Source: Gemmatimonadota bacterium (GTDB taxonomy: Bacteria; Gemmatimonadota; Gemmatimonadetes; Gemmatimonadales; Gemmatimonadaceae). From it: a DNA stretch of 64,000 nucleotides. The stretch covers positions 62,001 to 126,000 of the forward strand of contig BJHH01000002.1 in assembly GCA_014192065.1 (NCBI GenBank). The letters run 5' to 3'. Made by a program: the position numbers and the translations under genes. The notes under the pieces are model-generated. The model was not told where the DNA came from. It made no database searches and saw only the letters and a program-made list of their open reading frames with translations. Positions 12,164 to 13,777 of this stretch are shown in pieces; positions within the stretch are counted from its first letter, which is position 1, and each line of letters starts with the position of its first letter.

Positions 12164-12748
12164 ATGATGCAACTGGACGTGCATGTGAGGCGGATCACAG
12201 CCGCACTCGTCGTGAGCGCCGTTGGTGCGGTGCTGCAGGCGCAGGCGCCAGCCGCTGCGCCGCAGGAGCTGGCACCGAAGGTCGGCGACGTCGCACCAGA
12301 CTTCACCCTGCCGGCCAGCACGAAGGAAGGCAAACTCGCGCAACCACTTCGCCTCTCCAACCTCAAGGGCCAGGTAGTGGTTCTTGCTTTCTTTCCGAAA
12401 GCAAGAACCCGTGGCTGAACTGCTCAAATGAACGCGTACCGTGATCAGTACGCGCAGGTCTTCAACGGTGGCAAGGGCGTCACGGTGCTGAGCATCAGCG
12501 TCGACGTCGACACCATCCACGCCGCGTGGGCCCGCGAGGCGGGCTACCCGGTGACGTTTGTCAGCGACACCGCGAGGACCCTCGGCACGCAGTACAACGT
12601 GGGGGGCTTTCTCAAAACCTATTCCCGTGTGCTCTTCGTTGTGGGCAAGGACGGAAGAATCGCCCACGTGATGCGGCCGTTTCGCGAACTGGTGCAAGAC
12701 TCGTATGACGAACTCCAGAAGGCCGTGGCGACGGCGATGCAGCCCTAG
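12164..12748 (+). CDS. Candidate selenocysteine-containing peroxiredoxin (bcp/PrxQ type; in-frame TGA = Sec85)
   Basis: Read through one in-frame TGA (12416-12418), this is a 194-residue exported thiol/selenol peroxidase. Residues 1-27 form a signal peptide; GDVAPDFTLP (41-50) and the strand QVVVLAFFPKA (70-80) are typical AhpC/TSA. The TGA is codon 85, exactly where bcp-type proteins have the peroxidatic Cys (FxPKAxTxGCT). Thr82 and Arg155, the other conserved active-site residues, are intact, and the frame stays open and family-like to 12748. No Cys occurs anywhere, so without Sec it would have no redox centre. The ATG at 12164 has GGAGG nine nt upstream. Sec insertion is inferred from this and the downstream hairpin; the alternative is a single nonsense change (TGC to TGA) making a pseudogene. 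No sel genes are in the window. Confidence 0.75.
12379..12409 (+). other. 13-bp perfect hairpin just upstream of the in-frame TGA
   Basis: Positions 12379-12391 pair perfectly with 12397-12409 around a 5-nt loop, ending 6 nt before the TGA. Codons 73-81 that form it use A or T at seven of nine third positions, including rare AGA, unlike the GC-rich third positions around. This suggests RNA-level constraint, although a template-switch mutation or assembly artefact could also produce a perfect palindrome. Role unknown. Confidence 0.6.
12433..12454 (+). promoter_or_regulatory. Candidate bacterial SECIS hairpin
   Basis: A 7-bp perfect stem (12433-12439 with 12448-12454) closes the 8-nt loop CGTGATCA. 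The loop begins after 21 nt of spacing from the TGA and has a G at its second position, which fits the published bacterial SECIS consensus (short apical loop, G in the first two positions, roughly 16-37 nt from UGA). SelB would bind here during translation. Confidence 0.6.
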
Positions 12749-12865: not shown

Positions 12866-13777
12866 ATGACCTCGCGCACCTCTGTCGTCGTTGGCCTCAT
12901 GCAGGACGCCGTCACCGGTGACTCGCAGCACGCGCTCGCCGCGACCATCACCCGTGTGCGCGAAGCGGCCGCGAAAGGCGCGCAGATCATCTGCCTGAAG
13001 GAACTCTTCAACGCACCATACTTCTGCAAAGCGCTGAAACAGGAATACTTCAACTTCGCCGAACCAATTCCCGGCCCCACCACCGACGCGTTGCGCGCCG
13101 TGGCTGCCGAATTGCAGGTAGTGCTCATCGTCCCGATTTTCGAGCGTCAGGCGCCTGGTGTATATCGCAACTCCGCCGCTGTCATCGACGCCGACGGCAC
13201 GCTGCTCGGCGTGTATCGCAAGATGCACATCCCGCACGACCCGCTCTTTGAGGAGAAGTACTACTTCGCTCCGGGCGACGCGGTGACCGAGGGTGAGGGC
13301 ACCGCCAGCGGGTTCAAGATCTGGAAGACGCGCTACGCAACGATTGGCGTGCTCATCTGCTGGGACCAGTGGTACCCCGAAGCAGCGCGCATCACGGCGC
13401 TCCTCGGCGCCGACATCCTGTTTTATCCCACCGCGATCGGCTGGCACCCGGCCGAAAAGGCGGTGTGGGGCGCATCCCAGGTGGACAGCTGGCGTACCGC
13501 CCAGCGGGCACACGCCATCGCCAACGGCGTTTTCGTCGCCTCGGTGAACCGCGTCGGGTTTGAACCAGAACCCGGCACGCAGGGGATCGAATTCTTCGGC
13601 CACTCGTTCATGGCCGACCCGTACGGCCGGATGATCGCCAACGCCGCGACCGAGCCAACCACGCTCATCGCCGAGTGCGATCTCAGCCTCATCGAGGGCG
13701 CGCGCCGCAACTGGCCGTTTCTGCGCGATCGCCGGATCGATGCCTATGGCCCGATCCTGAATCGCTGGATCGGATGA
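12866..13777 (+). CDS. aguB: N-carbamoylputrescine amidase
   Basis: Nitrilase-superfamily enzyme of 303 residues hydrolysing N-carbamoylputrescine to putrescine, CO2 and ammonia: the last step of the agmatine route. The triad is visible: Glu46 in LKELFN, Lys119 in YRKMHIPHDP and Cys165 in ICWDQWYPE. GWHPAEK (about 192-198) and the C-terminal GFEPEPGTQ region match AguB rather than generic nitrilases. The ATG at 12866 gives the usual N-terminus; a TTG 54 nt upstream would lie almost in the preceding hairpin. It overlaps aguA by ATGA, so both enzymes of the pathway are coupled. Confidence 0.95.
   Translation: MTSRTSVVVGLMQDAVTGDSQHALAATITRVREAAAKGAQIICLKELFNAPYFCKALKQEYFNFAEPIPGPTTDALRAVAAELQVVLIVPIFERQAPGVYRNSAAVIDADGTLLGVYRKMHIPHDPLFEEKYYFAPGDAVTEGEGTASGFKIWKTRYATIGVLICWDQWYPEAARITALLGADILFYPTAIGWHPAEKAVWGASQVDSWRTAQRAHAIANGVFVASVNRVGFEPEPGTQGIEFFGHSFMADPYGRMIANAATEPTTLIAECDLSLIEGARRNWPFLRDRRIDAYGPILNRWIG

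Follow-up and report, generated by a model that had tools for sequence, protein, structure and literature searches.

Bacterial peroxiredoxins (Prx) with selenocysteine (Sec) in a TxxU motif are an established selenoprotein family (PMC9312934, PMC13188914, PMC2398784, PMC1088965), as the sequence-only reading of the locus described here had correctly stated. The bacterial SECIS model describes a hairpin with a loop of 3-9 nt, a stem of 4-16 bp, a spacing of 16-37 nt, a G at loop position 1 or 2 and an MFE no higher than -7.5 kcal/mol (PMC13188914). In an earlier survey, Prx forms with Cys, not those with Sec, were associated with higher oxygen (PMC1794560). The candidate Sec-Prx gene considered in this work is located in a 64,000-nt stretch of a Gemmatimonadota contig (BJHH01000002.1, positions 62,001-126,000; the window).

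The gene occupies positions 12164-12748 of the forward strand and codes for 194 amino acids, with putative Sec at position 85 and the TAG stop codon at 12746-12748. TGA at 12416-12418 (codon 85) is the sole internal stop of this frame, which is otherwise open up to the TAG. The read-through product covers the whole PF00578 (AhpC-TSA/Redoxin) domain with its residues 40-168 (90 bits, cut-off 26) and contains the P78-x3-T82-x2-U85 motif together with Arg155. Among 44 aligned homologues Arg155 is invariant and Thr82 is conserved in at least 90%. The sequence-only reading had described a family-like frame open on both sides of the TGA, with Thr82 and Arg155 retained; this description, including its coordinates and residue numbers, proved correct. 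The full read-through translation has no resolving Cys and no Cys of any kind, as had also been noticed. E. coli BCP has its resolving Cys five residues after the peroxidatic one; the window protein has Asn90 in this position. Additional Cys residues of the homologues are confined to the leader, at least 55 residues before Sec/Cys, and the lack of a UxxC or CxxU pair makes these proteins unlike thiol:disulfide oxidoreductases. An AlphaFold2 model based on the alignment of 44 family members has a Prx fold (pLDDT 89.5), and the best 50 Foldseek matches in PDB are all peroxiredoxin-family structures, Bcp4 (3hjp, E 9e-14) being the first.

Homologues were matched in 147 out of 148 genomes of the family, the closest ones having either one internal TGA or no stop. 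When duplicates are removed, 144 distinct homologues carry TGA (106) or TGC/TGT (38), and nothing else, at the codon aligned to codon 85, which agrees with the earlier assignment of this codon to the peroxidatic Cys position. The sequence-only reading had named random nonsense and frameshift changes at other positions of homologues as a sign against a selenoprotein; no further TGA occurs within the aligned region of these 144 homologues. Comparison with the five nearest copies gives dN/dS of 0.08-0.29 for codons +1 to +59 after the TGA, indicating that the protein is still under selection past this codon. TGA copies are not confined to this family: further families of the order, and of the class, have them too; six genomes of the same phylum sampled outside the class gave weak matches or none. 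On this distribution, the Sec arrangement is maintained throughout the class that includes the window genome.

A hairpin core is located downstream of the TGA at positions 12433-12454 of the forward strand. It has a 7-bp stem (CGCGTAC/GTACGCG) and an 8-nt loop (CGTGATCA), which corresponds to CGCGUAC-CGUGAUCA-GUACGCG in RNA, with the apical loop beginning 21 nt after the UGA. The hairpin (MFE about -11 kcal/mol) agrees with the bacterial SECIS model in every constraint, as expected from the SECIS-like structure suspected earlier. Folding of the single sequence did not reveal a significant signal (dinucleotide-shuffle z = 0.17), and the 7-bp arm of the window alone is unremarkable, as about 10% of synonymous recodings yield one. 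Comparative tests were used after this failure of the single-sequence test. Of the 106 TGA copies, 103 have the perfect 7-bp arm, where synonymous recoding would give about 11; the 38 Cys copies all lack it. Of 96 distinct sequences, 94 have G-C, C-G, U-A or A-U as the outer stem pair, while shuffles pair in 57 on average and in 70 at most; this indicates covariation by compensatory change in the SECIS stem.

Codon usage after the TGA is also constrained. In the Sec copies, codons +6 to +9 are GCG (104/105), TAC (106/106), CGT (95/106) and GAT (102/106), even though elsewhere in these genes only about 8% of the Arg codons are CGT. In the Cys copies, CGC predominates at +8 and GAC does so at +9, and TAT is commoner than TAC at +7. 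On these counts, synonymous codons variable in the Cys copies are frozen by the SECIS in the Sec copies. At the class level, the core GCGUAC(CGUGAUCA)GUACGC is nearly letter-perfect at about 40% protein identity. It is the comparison of homologues that decides the matter, and on its strength the hairpin is certainly a genuine SECIS.

The sequence-only reading had suggested a search for the sel genes, and all of them were found in the window genome (2.45 Mb in 16 contigs, 97.8% complete). Family models identified full-length selA (C7:34980-36308, 531 bits), selB (C3:242521-244359, 365 bits, positions 1-579 of 581) and selD (C3:165243-166163, 380 bits). The tRNA-Sec gene adjoins selD (C3:165031-165123, 82.6 bits) and was called by ARAGORN as SeC with anticodon tca. 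Other selenoproteins of this genome were sought via two single families, PF00578 and FdhA. The remaining peroxiredoxins lack TGA. fdhA, coding for the formate dehydrogenase alpha chain (L166, C1:159186-161054, outside the window), has one internal TGA at the usual Sec position (context CNRTUHAPSVVGL) and, after it, a hairpin whose loop is GGTCT; this constitutes an independent sign that selenoproteins are encoded in this genome. A scan of the window for TGA-interrupted frames gave many matches, apparently overlapping-frame noise of GC-rich DNA.

Presence of the TGA copy goes along with selA in the family: selA was matched in 89 of the 96 genomes with a TGA copy among the matches listed and in 10 of the 52 others, some of these 10 possibly carrying a TGA copy beyond the matches listed (Fisher p = 4e-20, only a guide because the genomes are related). 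Seven genomes (G002, G067, G089, G097, G101, G122, and G136) have a TGA copy but no selA match. Most of these assemblies are incomplete, but completeness reaches 96% in G122; such genomes count against the selenoprotein reading.

At first sight, the in-frame TGA resembles a nonsense mutation, and it might also be a misread Cys codon. Yet 106 distinct homologues have TGA at this very codon and none elsewhere, purifying selection persists after it and the SECIS is restricted to the TGA copies. As all these distinct copies share the constrained SECIS, a sequencing error cannot account for the TGA, and we consider the chance that the gene is a pseudogene or an artefact to be negligible. Read-through of the UGA, or its reassignment to another amino acid such as Trp or Cys, would equally leave the frame open past the TGA, as would any code in which TGA is a sense codon. 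However, TGA terminates ordinary genes of the window (among them the ORF that stops at 13777 and its neighbours), the sel machinery of the genome is complete, no SECIS is found where the codon is Cys, and no TGA is found in the other peroxiredoxins of the genome. Such recoding is therefore hardly credible. The TGA codon 85 is almost certainly read as selenocysteine at the catalytic position.

The product is probably exported to periplasm or envelope, as judged by the leaders. Residues 1-28 or so (12164-12247, forward strand) form a probable N-terminal signal peptide with an AxA-type site AQA/PAAA, assigned by hydropathy and the AxA rule; the exact cleavage site is a prediction. By the same simple rules, 141 of the 142 homologues that could be tested have a hydrophobic leader, and 131 have AxA. 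Residues 1-30 of the AlphaFold2 model have low pLDDT. One relative (L046) has a lipobox-like LAGIAC sequence.

Taken together, the computed codon, its conservation, SECIS, Sec machinery and fold family lead us to consider it very probable that this is a functional selenoprotein gene coding for an exported Sec peroxiredoxin in which UGA85 is decoded via the SECIS. SelB with Sec-tRNA-Sec would bind the SECIS hairpin, whose loop begins 21 nt after UGA(85), so that selenocysteine would be inserted there in place of termination. The product would be a peroxiredoxin of the BCP/AhpC-TSA kind, located in periplasm or envelope, and its U85 selenolate, held by Thr82 and Arg155, would reduce hydroperoxides according to established peroxiredoxin chemistry. 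With neither a Cys nor a second Sec in the protein, an external thiol would have to reduce the oxidised Sec, as in 1-Cys type enzymes.

The active-site Pro of the PxxxTxxC/U motif is retained by all 42 Cys copies, whereas 88 of 135 Sec copies have Phe, Tyr, Ile, Ser or Val at this position. All independent pairs for Pro loss with Sec point in one direction, and they are too few for significance. The window copy retains its Pro; outside the genus of the window, many Sec members have lost it. Pro-less Sec copies include L031, L081, L092, and L168.

Rather than in peroxide reduction, the main job of the selenoprotein could also lie in thiol-dependent oxidoreduction or in redox sensing, with the Prx fold as the scaffold. 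Scores far under the cut-offs of all peroxidase equivalog models, the Pro missing in many Sec relatives and the exported location all speak for such a role. Against it, TxxU and the catalytic Arg are kept (with Arg155 invariant), there is no UxxC/CxxU pair and the best fold matches are peroxidases, which makes this function quite unlikely in our view.

Another hairpin is located upstream of the TGA, within the coding sequence. This perfect 13-bp structure with a 5-nt loop (GGTTCTTGCTTTC-TTTCC-GAAAGCAAGAACC; 12379-12409, forward strand) ends 6 nt before the TGA. Under synonymous recoding of the window gene, the 13-bp arm has p = 0.001, and the folding energy of the whole region around it is marginal (p = 0.08). 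Arms of at least 11 bp, a threshold picked after viewing the data, are present in 10 of the 106 Sec copies, where 0.2 would be expected, and absent from all 38 Cys copies, with about six changes on the tree; the copies are related. This hairpin is compatible with the VLAF-FP-KART peptide if AGA or AGG codes for the Arg. It may have arisen neutrally, when an imperfect palindrome was corrected by template switching. A role of this hairpin in decoding is not obvious, since a UGA-decoding ribosome would cover part of it. The joint proposal that in some lineages, including that of the window, the upstream hairpin, formed through the choice of synonymous codons, may serve alongside the SECIS as a second recoding cis-element and that it is Sec, not Cys, that makes the Pro dispensable is tentative, and we regard it as unlikely.

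The protein tree implies at least five switches between Sec and Cys with 144 rows and 10 with 177 rows, few of them being forced by well-supported branches (two in the 144-row tree). Several genomes of the window's genus, including G107, G137, G084, G045, and G066, have a Cys copy directly upstream of the Sec copy; such tandem pairs include L069, L070, L073, L074, and L076. G126 has two Sec copies in tandem (L055), and the window genome has a single copy. In the tree, two contigs titled 'Terrabacteria group' (L029) and 'Acidobacteria' (L033) are placed within the Sec clade of Gemmatimonadota, the aligned part of L029 being identical to Gemmatimonadota L031. These are probably mis-binned contigs or transfers.

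The name of the phylum is absent from the selenoproteome papers checked for it, and the titles and abstracts of the open-access literature on this phylum and selenoproteins or selenocysteine contain no report of the Prx lineage. As far as the open-access literature goes, a class-wide Gemmatimonadota Sec-Prx lineage without a resolving Cys is apparently undescribed. The sequence-only reading had considered a secreted Sec enzyme of the bcp type notable in such an organism; the Sec-Prx family as such has long been known. As standard gene prediction truncates such genes at the UGA, the enzyme is probably mis-annotated across the whole class. If the Sec enzyme acts as a peroxidase, as we infer, selenium-based peroxide defence is widely kept in the class despite the reported link between oxygen and Cys forms (PMC1794560). 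Tandem Sec/Cys paralogues and repeated switches offer a natural setting in which to ask why Sec persists and which residues of the active site it makes dispensable.

Compared with the described bacterial Sec-Prx (COG1225/PF00578), the Gemmatimonadota lineage has the same PF00578 domain, Sec in T-x-x-U and a bacterial SECIS downstream. It differs in having a leader, no resolving Cys and often no Pro, these traits being read from the Gemmatimonadota copies alone. PrxU (NF040737), the thioredoxin-dependent enzyme of the Eubacterium acidaminophilum type, belongs to the same Sec peroxiredoxin superfamily but is a different equivalog, as the window protein scores 49.6 bits against a cut-off of 270. 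BCP/PrxQ thiol peroxidases (NF006960, NF053650) are the nearest in sequence and fold and give the best NCBIfam match, the Sulfolobus BCP-like structures 2ywn and 3hjp being the closest ones. Nevertheless, the score with the thioredoxin-dependent thiol peroxidase model NF006960 is only 61.2 bits (cut-off 140), and BCP/PrxQ are Cys enzymes, whereas the window protein has predicted Sec in the peroxidatic position. Scores this far below the PrxU and BCP cut-offs point to a separate lineage within the Sec-Prx kind. With its 8-nt loop, 7-bp stem and GU at loop positions 2 and 3, the hairpin conforms to the bacterial SECIS model of bSECISearch (PMC13188914), but the Gemmatimonadota SECIS is unusually frozen in sequence over the whole class.
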